Source: Halorarum halophilum (GTDB taxonomy: Archaea > Halobacteriota > Halobacteria > Halobacteriales > Haloferacaceae). Taken from it: a stretch of 64,000 bases of DNA. The stretch is taken from positions 124,001-188,000 of the forward strand of contig NZ_CP058530.1 in assembly GCF_013401515.1 (NCBI RefSeq), read 5' to 3'. The translations under genes and the position numbers were made by a program. Positions 739 to 8,779 of the stretch are shown in pieces (position 1 is the stretch's first letter; each line of letters opens with the position of its first letter). Below the pieces are notes generated by a model, which ran no database searches, had not been told where the DNA came from, and saw nothing but the letters and a program-made list of their open reading frames with translations.

Positions 739-1287
739 GTGAGTGACTTCGAGGACCGCTTCGGGGACGCGCTCGAGGCCGTCCCCGAGGAGCACGTCGA
801 CCGGTCGCGCTTCGTGCCGGGCGTCGGCCCGCTCGACGCGGACGTCGTGCTGGTCGGCGAGGCGCCCGGAGAGAACGAGGTCGCGGAGGGCGAGCCGTTC
901 GTCGGCCAGGCCGGCAGGGAGCTCGACCGCGTGCTCGCGGACCTCGGCGTCGACCGCTCGTCGGTGTACGTCACGAACCTGGTGAAGGTCCGGCCGCCGG
1001 AGAACCGGACCCCCTACGTCGCCGAGATCGACGCCTGGCGTCCGGTGCTCGACGCCGAACTCGAGCGCATCTCGCCGACCGTCGTCGTCCCGCTCGGCAC
1101 CACCGCGACGCGGGCCGTGCTCGACACGGACGAGGGCGTCACCGACCTGCACGGCCGGCAGTTCGAACGGGACGGGTGGACGGTCGTCCCCGCGTTCCAC
1201 CCCGCGGCGACCTTCTACGACGAGACCAAGCGCGACGAGTTCGAGGCCGACATCCTGGCCGCCTTCGAGGCCGCCGGGCTGGTGTGA
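739..1287 (+). CDS. Uracil-DNA glycosylase family protein (family-4-like, no Fe-S cysteines)
   Basis: A 182-residue protein from GTG 739. It carries the UDG-superfamily motifs: GEAPGENE (40-47) with GEPFVGQAGR (51-60) for the catalytic water and uracil pocket, TNLVKVRPPENRTP (79-92), VPLGTTATRAVL (117-128) and AFHPAA (152-157), the DNA-intercalating motif. The expected activity is removal of uracil from deaminated cytosine in DNA. Classical family-4 enzymes hold a 4Fe-4S cluster with four cysteines, two of them in the KCRPP region. This protein contains no cysteine at all (V84 and W100 fall near two ligand positions). It is therefore a cluster-free relative, and glycosylase activity is inferred only. 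Confidence 0.85.
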   Translation: MSDFEDRFGDALEAVPEEHVDRSRFVPGVGPLDADVVLVGEAPGENEVAEGEPFVGQAGRELDRVLADLGVDRSSVYVTNLVKVRPPENRTPYVAEIDAWRPVLDAELERISPTVVVPLGTTATRAVLDTDEGVTDLHGRQFERDGWTVVPAFHPAATFYDETKRDEFEADILAAFEAAGLV

Positions 1288-1567
1288 GGGACGCCGGAAG
1301 CGGCCGCCTTCCACTGTTCGTTCGTGTCCGAGTCGAGTACTACGGGCAGCCGACACGCTACCGGTCGGCGGCGTGCCGGACTGGAACCCGGCGACGGGGC
1401 GGACGTCCCGGCGTTCCTCACTCCCGTACGCGCGGTACTCCCGGAGGAAACCCGCTTGCGGTGCTTCCCCGGAAACCACGGAGTAGTCACCTTATTTACA
1501 TTCCAGCACACCCTCAACAATTAGGGGAACCTCTCTTATCCGATAGTTGTGTAGCAACCGTCACACC

Positions 1568-2236
1568 ATGACGACCATTGTGCGAGCCACCCTGCCGGCG
1601 GAACAGTTCGCGCTCGACGAGACGTTCAATCGCGTTCCGTCGGCCGAGTTCGAGATCGTTCGGGTGGTCGCCGACAGCACCGACCGCGTGCTGCCGCTGC
1701 TGTGGGCGACTGCCGACGAAGGGGAGCCGTTCGACTCGCTACCGGAGGTGATCTCCGAGGACCCGACGACCCAGGAGATGTCCGTCGTCACCGAGTTCGA
1801 CACCGAGTACCTCCTGAAGATGGACTGGGAGATGCACGTGCGCGTGCTGTTCTACATCCTGAAGGAGGAGGACGCGACCATCCTCGACGCGCGCACGAAG
1901 GACGGCGAGTGGCACTTCCGGGTGCTGTTCCCCGAACACGACTCGGTCGGGACCATGTACCAGTCGTGCAAGGACTACGACATCACCCTCGACATCAAGC
2001 AGATCACCCAGCTGTCCGACTCGTTCCGCCGCGGCTGGTTCGGCCTGACCGAGCACCAGTACGAGACCATCGTCGGCGCGTACCGCGAGGGGTACTACTC
2101 CGTCCCGCGGAAGGCGAACCTGGAGGAACTGGCGGACCGCTTCGGCGTCTCCCACCAGGCGCTCTCCGAGCGGCTCCGGCGGGGCCACGAGAAGCTCATC
2201 GCGAACGCGATGCACCTCGAGTCGACCCCGGTGTAG
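1568..2236 (+). CDS. Bat-type HTH-10 transcriptional regulator
   Basis: A 222-residue protein; ATG 1568 is preferred over a TTG at 1547 because of codon choice and a compact leader. Residues 1-160 form the beta-rich sensor half typical of bacterio-opsin-activator-like proteins. The C-terminus from LTEHQYETIVGAYREGYY onward, through LEELADRFGVSHQALSERL, is the HTH-10 DNA-binding domain that defines this haloarchaeal family. There is no PAS or GAF domain, so it is one of the short stand-alone members. TATA-like stretches (TTATTTA near 1493, CTTATCC near 1536) lie upstream. The gene is monocistronic and its target genes cannot be deduced. Confidence 0.85.
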   Translation: MTTIVRATLPAEQFALDETFNRVPSAEFEIVRVVADSTDRVLPLLWATADEGEPFDSLPEVISEDPTTQEMSVVTEFDTEYLLKMDWEMHVRVLFYILKEEDATILDARTKDGEWHFRVLFPEHDSVGTMYQSCKDYDITLDIKQITQLSDSFRRGWFGLTEHQYETIVGAYREGYYSVPRKANLEELADRFGVSHQALSERLRRGHEKLIANAMHLESTPV

Positions 2237-2544: not shown

Positions 2545-2841
2545 ATGGAAGGCGTGCTCTGGTACCTGCTCGCGAGTTCCCGCGGGGGACCGACGCGGAC
2601 TCGGCTCCTTCGGGTGCTCGAGGACCAGCCACGCAACGCCAACCAGCTCGCGGACGAACTGGACCTCGACTACACCACCGTCCGACACCACCTCGACGTC
2701 CTGATGGACAACAACGTCGTCCGTCGCGCCGGCGGCGACTACGGGGCGGTGTACCTGTTCACCGACCAGGTCCGGACGAACTGGGACACGGTCGAGGAGA
2801 TACTCGAGGCGGTCGACGCGGGGGGGAACGACGACCCATGA
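2545..2841 (+). CDS. ArsR-like winged-helix regulator
   Basis: A 98-residue winged-helix protein. The order is an N-terminal strand-helix, a helix-turn-helix (NANQLADELDLDYTTVRHHL, residues 32-51, with recognition helix YTTVRHHLDVL), a wing ending YGAVYLFTD, then a C-terminal helix probably for dimerisation. It has no cysteines that would make it a metal sensor. It is followed by a small membrane protein and then the COG4315 lipoprotein, an arrangement that suggests local control of that cassette. The regulator family call is firm; the signal sensed is unknown. Confidence 0.85.
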   Translation: MEGVLWYLLASSRGGPTRTRLLRVLEDQPRNANQLADELDLDYTTVRHHLDVLMDNNVVRRAGGDYGAVYLFTDQVRTNWDTVEEILEAVDAGGNDDP

Positions 2842-2899
2842 ATACGGACGAACTTTGGACAGCACCTATGAGGGTTGCGGGCGGACCGGGGAGGCGACC

Positions 2900-3202
2900 A
2901 TGACCGTCTGGCTCGACGTCGCGAGGGCCGCTGCGGGGGTGAACGTGCTGCTGCTGCTCGCGCTGGGCTCCGTGTGGCTCCGCAACTACCGCCAGCACGG
3001 CGCCCGGCACACGCTGGGGCTCCTCGTCGTCGGAGCCTTCCTCCTCGTGGAGAACGCCCTCTGGCTCTACTTCTACGTCGTCCACCCGGCGTTCGTCGGC
3101 TGGTTCGTTGCCGCCGACGCGGACGTGCAGGTCGGGATGGCGATGCTGTGCGGGCTGGAACTCGTCGCGCTGGCCGTCCTCGCCCGGATCACCTGGCGCT
3201 GA
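2900..3202 (+). CDS. Small three-helix membrane protein
   Basis: A 100-residue hydrophobic protein; ATG 2900 is chosen over an upstream GTG because it gives a short N-terminus leading straight into the first membrane helix. Three membrane segments are visible (about residues 5-23, 34-58 and 76-96), separated by the basic loop RNYRQHGARH. It matches in size and topology the 106-residue membrane protein on the other side of the lipoprotein, and both sit beside an HTH gene. No catalytic motif is visible. A role as membrane sensor or anchor for the regulator is a guess from the neighbourhood. Confidence 0.75.
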   Translation: MTVWLDVARAAAGVNVLLLLALGSVWLRNYRQHGARHTLGLLVVGAFLLVENALWLYFYVVHPAFVGWFVAADADVQVGMAMLCGLELVALAVLARITWR

Positions 3203-3348
3203 TCGCCGGACCGTCGCGTGTCCCAAGCGGTTACGTATCTCAGGCGGTCACGTATCCCGGCCTCTTCCCCGCTCCGAACACCGACGTGGGACGAAGTTTG
3301 GACGGAGTTCGGAAAACGCTCTTTCGCGGGGTCGGCGTCCCGTCGGCT

Positions 3349-4317
3349 ATGGCACTCACCCGACGGCGGCTGCTCGGTGCGACCGTGGTAACGCTCCCCC
3401 TCGCGGGCTGTACGAGCGGCAGTGGCAGCAGCGGCGGTGGCGGAGGCGGGAACCAGCCCACCGCGACGGAACCCACCGACGGCGACGACTCCACGCCGAC
3501 CGGGACCGGAACCGGAACCGACGCCGGGATGGACGGCGCGACGGTCGCCGTCAGCACGCATCCCGACCACGGCGAGCTCCTGGTGGGGCCCGACGGGATG
3601 ACGCTGTACATGTTCGACCAGGATACGCGGGGCGAACCGGCCAGCACCTGCTACGAGGGGTGCGCCGAGGCGTGGCCGCCGCTCACCGTCGAAGGGGAAC
3701 CGACCGCTGGCGAGGGCGTCTCGGCCGAGTTGACCACGTTCGAGCGGGACGACGGCTCCACTCAGGTCGCGGCCGGCGGCTGGCCGCTGTACCACTTCGC
3801 CTCCGACTCGGAACCGGGGGACGCGACCGGCCAGGGCGTCAACGACGTCTGGTGGGTCATCCGCCCCGACGGCACGCCCGTCAGGCCCGGCCAGGGGACG
3901 GCCACCGGAACCGGGATGGACGGGGCGACCGTGAACGTCAGGTCACATCCCGACCTCGGCGAGCTTTTGGTGGGACCCGACGGGATGACGCTGTACATGT
4001 TCGACCAGGACACGCAGGGGGAGTCAGCGAGCGCGTGTTACCACGGCTGCGCGGAGGCGTGGCCCCCGTTCACCGTCGATGGCGAGCCGACCGCCGGTGA
4101 CGGCGTGAGCGCGGAACTGACGACGTTTGAACGCGAGGACGGGACGAGCCAGGTCGCGGCCGGCGGCTGGCCGCTGTACCACTTCGCTTCGGACACGCAA
4201 CCCGGGGACGCGACCGGCCAGGGCGTCAACGACGTCTGGTGGGTGCTGCGGCCGGACGGGACACCCGTGAAGCCGGATCAGGGGACGGCAACGGGCACGA
4301 ACGGCGCGTACAACTGA
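3349..4317 (+). CDS. Tandem COG4315 (PF03640-type) lipoprotein
   Basis: A 322-residue exported lipoprotein from ATG 3349. It has a basic N-terminus (RRRLLG), a hydrophobic core and a lipobox ending LAGC (Cys21), then a Gly/Thr/Asp-rich linker to about residue 65. Two near-identical domains follow (about 66-180 and 190-310). Each contains LLVGPDGMTLYMFDQD, a CY.GCAEAWPP cysteine pair, GGWPLYHFASD and GQGVNDVWWV, the hallmarks of the 'secreted repeat' family. The family is widespread in bacteria and haloarchaea with no settled biochemical role; a redox or metal-linked function has been suspected because of the conserved Cys/Met/His/Trp residues. It sits between two small membrane proteins and two HTH genes. 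Confidence 0.85.
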   Translation: MALTRRRLLGATVVTLPLAGCTSGSGSSGGGGGGNQPTATEPTDGDDSTPTGTGTGTDAGMDGATVAVSTHPDHGELLVGPDGMTLYMFDQDTRGEPASTCYEGCAEAWPPLTVEGEPTAGEGVSAELTTFERDDGSTQVAAGGWPLYHFASDSEPGDATGQGVNDVWWVIRPDGTPVRPGQGTATGTGMDGATVNVRSHPDLGELLVGPDGMTLYMFDQDTQGESASACYHGCAEAWPPFTVDGEPTAGDGVSAELTTFEREDGTSQVAAGGWPLYHFASDTQPGDATGQGVNDVWWVLRPDGTPVKPDQGTATGTNGAYN

Positions 4318-4371
4318 CCACGCCGTCCCGGACCGAAAGGCCGACGTGGTCCCCGCGCCCACTCAGGGTCG

Positions 4372-4692
4372 ATGAATCCCGCGTCCCTCGAGATCGGCCA
4401 CGTTGGCGGGCCCTGGTACGTGCTCGTCCTCGGTCTCGCGGCCGCCGGGGGAGCTGTGTTGCTCGGCGGGGGACTGGCCGCGTTCCTCCAGCGCAGGTCG
4501 CGCCCGTACCTGCTCGTCGCGCTCGCGCTCGGCACGCTCCTCGCGCGCACGGCGCTGGCCGTCGGCGCGACGTGGGGGGCAGTGGGCGAGGAGGTCCACC
4601 ACTTCGGCGAGCACGTCCTCGACGTGGCGATGGCCGGGCTGGTCATCGCCGCGGTCGTCTACGCCCGTCGCGCGGGGGGGACGACGACGTGA
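4372..4692 (+). CDS. Small three-helix membrane protein
   Basis: A 106-residue hydrophobic protein from ATG 4372. Predicted membrane helices lie at about residues 14-38, 46-68 and 82-99, with a basic loop QRRSRPY between the first two and a His-containing segment EEVHHFGEH before the third. Size, topology and loop position mirror the protein at 2900-3202. Its stop overlaps the next start codon (GTG 4689) by four bases, so the two are translationally coupled. The fixed pairing with an HTH protein suggests membrane-linked control of the regulator; no function is known. Confidence 0.78.
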   Translation: MNPASLEIGHVGGPWYVLVLGLAAAGGAVLLGGGLAAFLQRRSRPYLLVALALGTLLARTALAVGATWGAVGEEVHHFGEHVLDVAMAGLVIAAVVYARRAGGTTT

Positions 4693-5207
4693 GCGATACC
4701 CCGACCCGAGAGCGCGTCGCGTCCTACGTCCGGACCCACCCCGGACTCCACTTCAACGAGCTCGTCCGTCGGCTCGACCTCGCCCCCGGTCAGGCCCAGT
4801 ACCACCTTCGGGGGCTCACCGACGACGGCGACCTGTGCCGCGAGGAGGTGTCCGGCCGGACCCACTACTTCCCGCCGGAGTTCGCCCCCGCCGACCGGCT
4901 GCTCGTCTCGCTGTTGCGCCGCGAGACGGCCCGCGACGTCTGCCTCGAACTGCTGGATCGTCCCTGGCGGCCGGCGTCGCTCGCGGACGACCTGGGGGTC
5001 GCCCGAAGCACGCTGGAGTGGCACCTCGACAGGCTCGTCGACGTCGACGTGGTCCGCAAGCGCCGCGACGAGCGAGGTAGGGTGACGCTCGTGCTCGCGG
5101 ACCCGGAACGAACCGCTCGGGGACTTCGGACCGTCCGGCCGTCGCTCCCGGACCGCCTGCTCGACCGGTTCACCCGGCTGGTGGACGGGCTGCTGGAGGG
5201 CGACTGA
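4689..5207 (+). CDS. Transcriptional regulator with two winged helices
   Basis: A 172-residue protein starting at GTG 4689 inside the previous stop. Two winged-helix units are visible. The first spans about residues 5-62 (HFNELVRRLDLAPGQAQYHL plus wing). The second spans about 80-140 (ASLADDLGVARSTLEWHL with a basic wing RKRRDERG). Tandem HTH proteins of this kind are common in haloarchaea and usually act as repressors or activators of the adjacent membrane gene. Coupling to the membrane protein supports a membrane-sensor/DNA-binding pair. The ligand is unknown. Confidence 0.83.
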   Translation: MSDTPTRERVASYVRTHPGLHFNELVRRLDLAPGQAQYHLRGLTDDGDLCREEVSGRTHYFPPEFAPADRLLVSLLRRETARDVCLELLDRPWRPASLADDLGVARSTLEWHLDRLVDVDVVRKRRDERGRVTLVLADPERTARGLRTVRPSLPDRLLDRFTRLVDGLLEGD

Positions 5208-5310: not shown

Positions 5311-5691
5311 ATGGCGCTTCCACGCTCCCGTGGGCTGCTTCTCTGCCTCTGCTGTCTCGTGGTGAGTGCTACAATCGCGGGCTGTCTCGGGGGGGCCGGG
5401 GTGGGCGACGCGGAAGCGAGGGAACGCGCGCTCGCCGCCGAGGGGGACCACATCGCCGAGCAGTTGGAGAACGCGACCTGCGTCGAGGGCTGGGGGCCGA
5501 CCTCGTACGCGGGGGTGGAGAGGGAGGCGACGGTCACGAACCGAACTGCTGACGGGGTGTACGTGGAGGTCACGCACCCGTACTGGTACTCGACGGGGCG
5601 GGACGAGGCCGACGTCGGTTCGAACGCACGCTACCTCGTCACCGCCGACGCCGTCCGCCGTGTCGGCGGTACCGACGTGTCGCCCTGTTAG
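5311..5691 (+). CDS. Small exported lipoprotein
   Basis: A roughly 126-residue protein with a strongly hydrophobic leader and the lipobox IAGC (Cys near residue 24). The mature part is short, acidic and beta-rich, with two further cysteines (ATCVEGWG and the C-terminal SPC) that could form a disulfide outside the cell. GTG 5302, three codons upstream, is an equally possible start. I do not recognise the family. It is not obviously part of the neighbouring cassette, lying about 100 bases after the double-HTH gene on the same strand. Confidence 0.72.
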   Translation: MALPRSRGLLLCLCCLVVSATIAGCLGGAGVGDAEARERALAAEGDHIAEQLENATCVEGWGPTSYAGVEREATVTNRTADGVYVEVTHPYWYSTGRDEADVGSNARYLVTADAVRRVGGTDVSPC

Positions 5692-5810: not shown

Positions 5811-6215
5811 TCAGTCGGCACCCGCCGATGCCGCCTGTTGTTCCTCGATGTGGTCGACGATCTGGGACGTCTCCTCGACGAAGTCGTCGAGGTCGACCTG
5901 GCTCCCGTGGAGGATCGTCGAGAAGTACTGCACGTTGGCCGCGACGTTCACCGCTTCGGTTACTCCGCCCTCCGTGACCTCCTCCAGTTTCGCCTCCTCC
6001 GTGTGGAAGTGGATGCAGTAGGGACAGTTCAGCGCGGCCGCCGCCCCGAGCGCGACGAGCGCCTTCTCCCGGTTCGGAAGCTCCGTCTCCCCCAACTCGA
6101 GGTCGCGCACGACCTGCCAGCTGTGGTCGGCGGCGGGCTCCGAGAGTCCGTCTATCCAGCTCGGTACCTGTCCGAGGTACTCTTCGATTTCTTGCCGCGT
6201 TTGATCCGAGACCAT
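5811..6215 (-). CDS. AhpD-like / carboxymuconolactone decarboxylase family protein
   Basis: A 134-residue all-helical protein. The signature is NCPYCIHFH (residues 63-71), a CxxC pair (Cys64, Cys67) with following histidines, as in the AhpD alkylhydroperoxidase core. Members reduce peroxides through the cysteine pair or act as decarboxylases in aromatic degradation; the CxxC-H pattern favours the peroxidase-like branch. The N-terminal helix and the acidic C-terminal tail are typical for a cytoplasmic haloarchaeal protein. It is convergent with the upstream lipoprotein gene and monocistronic. Substrate is unknown. Confidence 0.85.
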   Translation of the reverse strand: MVSDQTRQEIEEYLGQVPSWIDGLSEPAADHSWQVVRDLELGETELPNREKALVALGAAAALNCPYCIHFHTEEAKLEEVTEGGVTEAVNVAANVQYFSTILHGSQVDLDDFVEETSQIVDHIEEQQAASAGAD

Positions 6216-7435: not shown

Positions 7436-8779
7436 ATGAGTGACAGCGACGGGCCGGGGGGACGCGCCAGGGCGCGGGACCGGCGCGTTCCGGACGCCGA
7501 CGGCGGGCTCTCGCGCCGCGATTTCGGGAGGGCGGCCGTGGCCGCCGGCGGGGCCGCCGCCCTCTCCGCCTGCGTCGAGCGCCTCCGACCGGCCGAGCCG
7601 ATTCCGACCGGCGACGGCGCAGCCGCCCATCCGACCGGCCAGCACGAGTGGAACGAGTTCCTGGACGCCGACGACGCCGGCAACGACCGCCTGCCGCGCC
7701 ACCACGTCTTCCTCTACTGCTCGCTCCCCGGCGACGGCCCGCCCGACGAGGACGCCCGGACCGCCGTCGGCGACGCCCTCGACGCGCTGGACGACGCGTT
7801 CGCGTGGGGGCCCGAGGGCCTGCTCCACTCGACCGCCTACTCCCCGGCGTACTTCGACCGCTACGACGCGTCCCTCCCCGACTCCGTCGACCTCCCCCAC
7901 CCGCGGACGCTCGCGCCGTTCGAGACGCCGACGTTCGACGAACAGGACCTGCTCGTCCACCTCGCCTCCGACCGTTCGGACGCCATACTGGCGGCCGAGG
8001 AGGCGCTGACGGGGGAGCGCGACTCGGCCAACGAGACCCAGTTCCGGGCGGCGCTCACCGACGCCGTGACCGTCGACTCCCGACGGACCGGGTTCATGGA
8101 GGCCGGCAAGCCCCACGAGGAGGGGGACGACCTCTCCGGGGTCCCGCAGCCGAACCCGATTCCCGAGGAATCGCCGCTGTTCATGGGGTTCATCGCCGGC
8201 CTCCGGGCGAACCAGGCGTCCGAGTCGTACGTCGCCATCCCGGACGGGCCGTTCGCCGGCGGCACCACGAAGGTCGTCTCGAACTGGCGCCAGCGCCTGA
8301 ACGACTGGTACGGCGAGCAGGACTTCGACCAGCGGGTGATGGAGATGTTCTCGCCCGCCCACAGCACGCAGGGACTCGTCGAGGGCGTCGGCGAGGACCT
8401 CGGCGACGACAGCGGCATCGACGAGTTCCTCGACGACGTGGTCGCCGACGCGAAGGAGCACGGCCGCGTCGGCCACGCGCAGAAGGCCGCGCGGGCGAAC
8501 CGGGACGAGGAGGGGAACGTGAAGCTGCTCCGCCGGCACGTCGAGTCGACCGACGACGACGAGGCGAGCCTCCACTTCCCGGCGCTCCAGCGCGGCATCT
8601 CCGACTTCGAGGCGGTGCGGGAGGCGATGAACGGGGTCGACGCGACCGAGGCGACGCCCGCGGTCCGCCAGCGGGTGAACAACGGCATCCTCGAGTACAT
8701 CTTCGTCAGGCGGCGGGGCTACTTCCTCGTCCCGCCGCGCGAACTGCGGGCGTTGCCACGGCCCGACGGGAGCGCGTGA
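7436..8779 (+). CDS. Tat-exported DyP-peroxidase-like protein (DUF7405-like)
   Basis: A 447-residue protein from ATG 7436. A twin-arginine motif (LSRRDFGRAA, RR at 27-28) is followed by an Ala-rich core and a lipobox-like LSAC (Cys46). The C-terminal half follows the order of dye-decolorizing peroxidases: a GxxxG-type segment GFMEAGKP (219-226), a mid-domain helix WRQRLNDWYGEQDF, then GHAQKAARAN (from 346) with H347 where the proximal heme His falls, then LLRRH and LHFPALQRGISDFE. The canonical distal GxxDG motif is altered (no Asp). Heme binding and peroxidase activity are therefore uncertain. It is likely exported folded with cofactor and anchored to the membrane. Confidence 0.7.
   Translation: MSDSDGPGGRARARDRRVPDADGGLSRRDFGRAAVAAGGAAALSACVERLRPAEPIPTGDGAAAHPTGQHEWNEFLDADDAGNDRLPRHHVFLYCSLPGDGPPDEDARTAVGDALDALDDAFAWGPEGLLHSTAYSPAYFDRYDASLPDSVDLPHPRTLAPFETPTFDEQDLLVHLASDRSDAILAAEEALTGERDSANETQFRAALTDAVTVDSRRTGFMEAGKPHEEGDDLSGVPQPNPIPEESPLFMGFIAGLRANQASESYVAIPDGPFAGGTTKVVSNWRQRLNDWYGEQDFDQRVMEMFSPAHSTQGLVEGVGEDLGDDSGIDEFLDDVVADAKEHGRVGHAQKAARANRDEEGNVKLLRRHVESTDDDEASLHFPALQRGISDFEAVREAMNGVDATEATPAVRQRVNNGILEYIFVRRRGYFLVPPRELRALPRPDGSA

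Follow-up and report, generated by a model that had tools for sequence, protein, structure and literature searches.

The window analyzed here is a stretch of 64,000 nucleotides (nt) from the haloarchaeon Halorarum halophilum (assembly GCF_013401515.1, contig NZ_CP058530.1, positions 124,001 to 188,000), near the start of which lie five genes for two winged-helix regulators of the helix-turn-helix (HTH) type, two small membrane proteins and a lipoprotein with COG4315 domains. They are called below, in order, HTH1, MEM1, LIPO, DUF7471 and HTH2 (the names HTH1, MEM1, LIPO and HTH2 were coined in the present analysis). To our knowledge archaea have no sigma factors, and the passage of envelope signals to their promoters is poorly known. 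Emphasis will be placed on HTH1 and MEM1, which may constitute a membrane-coupled transcription switch.

Organization of the Locus

The five open reading frames (ORFs) lie where the original prediction had placed them (Table 1) and have the codon usage of coding sequences, as a gene caller trained on the window and the fetched loci picks all five. Family scans agree with its description of two winged-helix genes (HTH_5; PF24266 plus HTH_20) and a lipoprotein (PF03640), and the four-base overlap that it mentioned is present between DUF7471 and HTH2. The shared size and topology of the membrane proteins was likewise recovered, each having three hydrophobic segments, three Arg/Lys residues in the first loop and a basic C-terminus. 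Homology of MEM1 to DUF7471 was rejected (hhalign probability 2%, BLASTP E 0.67); therefore the near-symmetry of the locus holds as a pattern of gene kinds and fails as a duplication. The locus consists of two units, a conserved HTH1-MEM1-LIPO module and a separate DUF7471-HTH2 pair.

Table 1. Genes and operator-like sites of the locus; positions are counted from the first nucleotide of the window.
Feature	Position	Strand	Description
HTH1	2545..2841	+	Small winged-helix regulator, 98 aa, HTH_5/ArsR-like; Pfam HTH_5 40.1 bits
Operator-like site 1, GGACGAACTTTGGAC	2846..2860	+	In the HTH1-MEM1 gap; exact motif match
MEM1	2900..3202	+	100 aa, three membrane helices with a short one between the second and third; no family in Pfam or NCBIfam
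Operator-like site 2, tandem 11-bp repeat GGACGAAGTTT-GGACGGAGTTC-GGAAAAC	3289..3317	+	Upstream of LIPO; exact motif at 3289-3303
LIPO	3349..4317	+	322 aa, lipoprotein with signal of the twin-arginine translocation (Tat) type, two COG4315 domains (four PF03640 repeats)
DUF7471	4372..4692	+	106 aa, three-transmembrane (3-TM) protein; PF24283 105.9 bits (gathering 27)
HTH2	4689..5207	+	172 aa, HVO_0163-type double winged-helix; PF24266 111.5 bits (gathering 31) plus HTH_20

The HTH1-MEM1 Pair

Family counts and motif scans were made on 195 genomes of the order, in 130 of which MEM1 relatives are present. Gene order around MEM1 was examined in 121 loci (the window and 120 regions, which make up most of about 155 listed places and were chosen chiefly from the top ranks downward), and in 117 of them MEM1 is immediately preceded by HTH1 in the same orientation, with a median gap of 55 nt. 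The association extends beyond the order: among 14 distant loci of the same phylum, collected from weak matches in a phylum profile search, an HTH1 homolog directly precedes MEM1 in 13.

HTH1 has the recognition helix DYTTVRHHL (containing Thr44) and a conserved N-terminal segment, MExVLWYxL...RGG in the alignment. Searches against Pfam at E up to 0.1 return winged-helix families and no sigma family. ArsR/SmtB metalloregulators typically carry a Cys metal-binding motif on the recognition region; HTH1 scores 33.2 bits with the ArsR/SmtB model NF033788, below its cut-off of 55, the window protein has no Cys at all, and only 5 of 80 relatives hold any, so that a role as metalloregulator was rejected.

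No Pfam or NCBIfam model, including those of anti-sigma families, matches the window MEM1, none of 38 MEM1 relatives matches any Pfam family, and the MEM1 profile finds no match among Protein Data Bank (PDB) sequences at E up to 10. An AlphaFold2 model (mean predicted local distance difference test score, pLDDT, 92.9) is all helix (residues 3-33, 36-60, 63-71, and 74-99), and two polar residues within the helices, N15 and N52, are invariant. For both MEM1 and DUF7471, hydropathy and charge read by the positive-inside rule suggest an outer N-terminus and an inner C-terminus, with the Arg-rich loop (residues 26-37 in MEM1) also facing inward.

Two minor observations concern individual pairs. The HTH1 ORF is present on the plasmid of Halobaculum salinum, though the PLSDB gene table shows no gene there, and a MEM1 paralog with an in-frame TGA (G104:C1:3247747-3248040) is probably a pseudogene.

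A Candidate Operator for HTH1

The gap between HTH1 and MEM1 contains a block that is conserved across genera. In the window this block, GGACGAACTTTGGAC, recurs upstream of LIPO as GGACGAAGTTTGGAC, the two being copies of one 15-bp site that the original prediction does not mention. The sequence GGACGAAnTTTGGAC is found at exactly two places of the 4.28-Mb genome (4,277,959 bases), upstream of MEM1 and of LIPO, and the motif GGACGAANTTTGGAC has two perfect matches in this genome, both at the module of the window. When up to two mismatches are allowed, the genome holds 14 matches vs. 7 for the pattern read backwards (the control used throughout), and in the window alone 4 of 100 shuffled sequences also gave two such matches; for this reason the strength of the motif rests on its exact matches and their placement. 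Measured from GGACGAACTTTGGA, site 1 lies 40 nt before the MEM1 start, and a weak TATA-like CCTATGA then follows at 2865-2871 (by eye). Exact matches to the motif were not found in this genome before DUF7471 or HTH2.

The site could be placed in 80 of the 117 HTH1-MEM1 gaps, where HTH1 has DYTT or DYKT in its recognition helix. The bases GGAC precede GAA in 24 of 27 cases with Thr vs. none of 51 with Lys (in a single Asn case the site seems to have been placed by chance, and one row with a gap was excluded). In a FastTree phylogeny built from HTH1 and MEM1 together, the combination of Thr and GGAC appears in three separated clusters, with four parsimony changes for the residue and seven for the site, which argues that a single inherited event does not account for the whole link.

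Two site classes were defined and searched. Exact matches to class A, GGACGAANTTTGGA, number 36 and come from 23 genomes (control 3); of these, 29 are no more than 600 nt away from a MEM1 gene, two lie farther off but within 2.5 kb, and five are located elsewhere. The two at intermediate distance precede genes for DUF4397 and Ferritin_2 proteins. Of the five elsewhere, one stands before the gene for a DUF7282 protein in genome G158 (where HTH1 itself carries Thr) and another before that for a CHRD protein; two are followed by the same protein with a weak likeness to DUF7282 (20.1 bits, below the cut-off), and the last by nothing clear. Class B, CGAATTTGGGAAAG, has 27 exact matches (control 3), all of which, when their places are compared with those of the MEM1 relatives, precede a MEM1 gene by about 170 nt at most. 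Class B has no match in the H. halophilum genome even when one mismatch is allowed, which would be expected of a motif that follows the class of its regulator. Many class-B pairs (L112-L131 and similar loci) share, by eye, one recurrent neighborhood with thioredoxin-reductase-like and TFB genes.

Upstream regions of 31 LIPO genes were compared, and in 16 of them, that of the window included, the end of the class-A site is at a distance of exactly 46 nt from the start codon. The 16 comprise every locus in which LIPO follows a class-A HTH1-MEM1 pair (15) and one LIPO that is not linked to such a pair (L134). A tandem repeat occurs at 13 of the 16 sites, the first 14 bases having an identity of 0.77 with the copy shifted by 11 vs. 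0.42 for the next best shift (12). One locus (L101) has two LIPO genes in tandem after a single pair, with a class-A site at the first only. The rarity and spacing of the operator-like site and its co-variation with the recognition helix are seen in the sequences themselves; that HTH1 binds the site is strongly supported and quite probable.

LIPO and Other Exported Cargo

LIPO carries a twin-arginine motif and the lipobox LAGC (by eye) and is a member of PF03640, which it matches over four stretches with 203.6 bits (gathering 24.4); it is the sole PF03640 protein of its genome. With NF040526 (SCO0930_lipo) it scores 235.7 bits against a cut-off of 275, and thus falls outside this equivalog family. 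Proteins of PF03640 are present in 26 of the 195 genomes, and in 17 of these LIPO lies directly after MEM1 on the same strand, at 64 to 146 nt and always with HTH1 upstream; examples are found in Haladaptatus salinisoli, H. halobius, Halovivax sp. KZCA124, Halostella pelagica, and the H. salinum plasmid. The part of the original prediction that read a membrane-coupled regulatory unit for the lipoprotein is therefore retained for HTH1-MEM1-LIPO, given the constancy of the pair, the neighborhood of LIPO and the common operator-like site, and abandoned for the five genes as one.

The HTH1-MEM1 pair is constant while the cargo swaps between loci. Among the genes downstream of or linked to the pair, Pfam identifies DUF7282 repeats with PGF-CTERM, Ferritin_2, copper-binding (plastocyanin/azurin) and DUF4397 proteins (one representative of each). 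In some relatives COG4315 domains are fused to blue-copper domains (N-terminal in L132 and L136, C-terminal in L304), and for this reason the exported cargo is probably redox- or metal-linked. Structure prediction for the COG4315 domain was poor (mean pLDDT 45.5 from six sequences) and was left unused, and a sequence search for a solved relative returned none (best E 0.82, a Pol protein).

A Proposed Membrane-Coupled Switch and Its Alternatives

The reading slightly favored by these comparative data is that the two genes HTH1 and MEM1 work together as a membrane-coupled transcription switch acting on a class-specific operator, with an exported protein as cargo. HTH1 would bind operators that overlap the core promoter or lie immediately before it, in one 11-bp unit at MEM1 and in tandem 11-bp units at the cargo gene, the cargo here being the COG4315 lipoprotein, and MEM1, held in the membrane, would retain or free HTH1 according to an envelope signal. 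The switch would be self-limiting by feedback through the operator of MEM1 itself, as often occurs with anti-sigma factors, because MEM1 carries the same operator as the cargo. As to its parts, MEM1 is rather likely to be the membrane partner that controls HTH1, and an activator role of HTH1 seems somewhat more likely than that of a repressor, since the site lies just upstream of a sequence resembling the TATA box and B recognition element (TATA/BRE-like, by eye) and not over the start.

Several observations weigh against this interpretation. The HTH1 gene is missing upstream of MEM1 in 4 of the 121 haloarchaeal loci and in one distant locus (L340) of the 14. Of the 117 gaps, 37 lack the site by the pattern used (mostly in more distant pairs, some with variants by eye), and 10 measure at most 12 nt, too short for MEM1 to have a promoter of its own there. 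The Fisher p-value of 4e-17 for the link between residue and GGAC ignores kinship. LIPO is placed elsewhere in 9 of the 26 PF03640 genomes, and the nearest gene downstream of the pair is flagged by a simple pattern as Tat and/or lipobox in only 36 of the 121 loci; the 85 unflagged searches include Sec-type DUF7282 proteins, TFB genes and places with no gene called. A Foldseek search of the MEM1 model against PDB chains matched no solved fold (best E 1.7), and the direct contact between MEM1 and HTH1 that the switch supposes is itself inferred.

This last point leaves room for the strongest alternative, in which HTH1 alone is a cytoplasmic one-component switch and MEM1 an effector that is regulated as cargo and might serve the exported protein in the membrane, for instance in electron transfer or assembly. 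The same site at the MEM1 and LIPO promoters fits both being mere targets, and the invariant N15 and N52 inside the MEM1 helices could have a chemical role. A dedicated effector should, however, follow its substrate and not the regulator, whereas MEM1 stays with HTH1 within the order and beyond it while the cargo varies (lipoprotein, DUF7282, ferritin-like, cupredoxin or none evident), and this alternative is considered rather unlikely. Much less probable is the view of the original prediction that the five genes are one symmetric cassette in which both HTH-membrane pairs jointly control LIPO. The order is the same in the window, in a congener (L095), and in H. salinum, and the gap of 54 nt between LIPO and DUF7471 in the window would allow co-transcription; however, the five genes, whose conserved order was looked for in haloarchaeal genomes, are not co-conserved as a single cassette. 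DUF7471 is within reach in 2 of 17 HTH1-MEM1-LIPO loci (the window and one congener; also in H. salinum) and missing within the searched stretch in the other 15, DUF7471-HTH2 is common without LIPO (DUF7471 occurs in 153 of the 195 genomes vs. 26 for PF03640), and no copy of the operator was found before DUF7471 or HTH2 in the H. halophilum genome. That the motif serves as a core-promoter element or binds some other factor, and is linked to HTH1 by mere neighborhood, is very improbable, since its position directly before the TATA/BRE-like sequence and its possible preservation by adjacency alone are set against two exact copies in the whole genome, far too few for a general promoter element, the tracking of the recognition helix by GGAC in separate lineages, and unlinked copies that precede the same kinds of exported genes.

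Comparison with Known Systems

The proposed HTH1-MEM1 switch would belong to a known kind of system, the membrane-controlled transcription factors. Winged-helix repressors and membrane sensors also occur as neighbors in systems of the BlaI/BlaR type, which resemble HTH1-MEM1 in having a winged-helix regulator next to a membrane protein; MEM1 differs in being too small for a protease or sensor domain, none of which was found by family scan in its 100 residues, all helix in the model. ArsR/SmtB regulators share the winged-helix fold, and the nearest solved relatives of HTH1 by profile are ArsR-type (best E 0.00045), whereas HTH1 is set apart by its sub-threshold score, its lack of Cys, its dedicated membrane partner and its conserved N-terminal segment. 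The DUF7471-HTH_HVO_0163 pair is alike in placing an HTH gene beside a 3-TM gene of the same predicted topology but differs in that its membrane protein has no detectable homology to MEM1 and its genes are mostly divergent.

The closest parallel is found in bacteria. A tblastn search of LIPO against plasmids gave 168 records, and 16 bacterial COG4315 regions, picked for diversity, were inspected. Next to the COG4315 gene, a factor of the sigma-70 family is encoded in eight (Phaeobacter, Paenarthrobacter, Methylibium, Deinococcus grandis, Deinococcus D7000, a Comamonadaceae bacterium, Roseateles, and Acidovorax), six of which have an annotated anti-sigma factor, one a zf-HC2 protein and one an unnamed gene; no sigma factor was found beside it in the other eight (Pseudomonas syringae, two Rhizobiaceae, Paracoccus, Jiella, Azospirillum, and two Streptomyces). 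SCO0930 is reported as a member of the SigU regulon, and rsuA as the anti-sigma gene of SigU (PMC6295645). LIPO has in common with the SCO0930 family (COG4315/Lipoprotein_15) four PF03640 repeats in two domains and a lipoprotein signal; it differs in scoring below the equivalog cut-off, in its archaeal Tat-type signal and in having an HTH-3TM pair in place of sigma and anti-sigma factors. Extracytoplasmic function (ECF) sigma/anti-sigma systems such as SigU/RsuA with SCO0930 thus resemble the haloarchaeal module in the juxtaposition of a small DNA-reading factor and a membrane protein near a COG4315 lipoprotein and, presumably, in feedback on the membrane partner; the differences are that HTH1 is an archaeal winged-helix protein without sigma domains and that MEM1, of 100 residues, has no anti-sigma or zinc-finger domain. 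We infer that HTH1-MEM1 works like a sigma/anti-sigma pair without being one, the sigma features that were looked for being absent from the family scans.

More tentatively, and with a little less than an even chance of being right, the pair may be an ancient archaeal counterpart of sigma/anti-sigma control that has been retained in haloarchaea and in more distant lineages of the phylum, couples the surface to transcription by way of a co-evolving operator and is plugged into interchangeable exported cargo, including the same COG4315 lipoproteins that in bacteria come under sigma/anti-sigma control. If true, this would be a little-noticed archaeal way of linking cell-surface events to gene control. 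As a short operator tracks the recognition helix, the regulon and the signaling route can be put to a direct test in haloarchaea that grow in culture, and a shared regulatory context emerges for exported proteins whose function is unknown (COG4315, DUF7282, CHRD, and DUF4397). In the open-access literature, a scope that mostly leaves subscription papers outside, no functional study of the HTH1-MEM1 pair was found, nor any paper under the term COG4315 or on DUF7282 or CHRD in haloarchaea, nor anything relevant that combines haloarchaea, anti-sigma factors and membrane-bound transcription factors.

The DUF7471-HTH2 Pair and Neighboring Genes

The DUF7471-HTH2 pair is a second pair of the same style, unrelated to HTH1-MEM1 and placed behind LIPO in this genus. 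A relative of HTH2 lies beside DUF7471 in 37 of 39 loci, divergently in 27; the set comprises the 30 best-scoring loci and nine picked by hand, two of which duplicate genomes among the 30, so that the 39 are not independent genomes. In the 11 aligned DUF7471 members HHxxEHxxD is invariant (residues 76-84 of the window protein); it is predicted to lie where helix 3 reaches the outside and may bind a metal or heme. The protein after which HTH2 is named, HVO_0163, is reported to be more abundant after hypochlorite in Haloferax volcanii (PMC10294847).

Downstream of HTH2 the window has a second small lipoprotein-like ORF without a Pfam match (5311-5691, +), a carboxymuconolactone decarboxylase/AhpD-like protein (5811-6215, -), and a DUF7405 (PF24152) protein that by eye begins with a twin-arginine signal (7439-8779, +), and in H. 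salinum a gene annotated as Dyp-type peroxidase lies two genes after HTH2. The DUF7405, AhpD-like, and Dyp-type proteins give hints of an oxidative-stress neighborhood. Upstream, synteny with the H. salinum plasmid covers a BAT/HTH_10 regulator and a uracil-DNA glycosylase (window 739-2236, +; L317 4938-6365).

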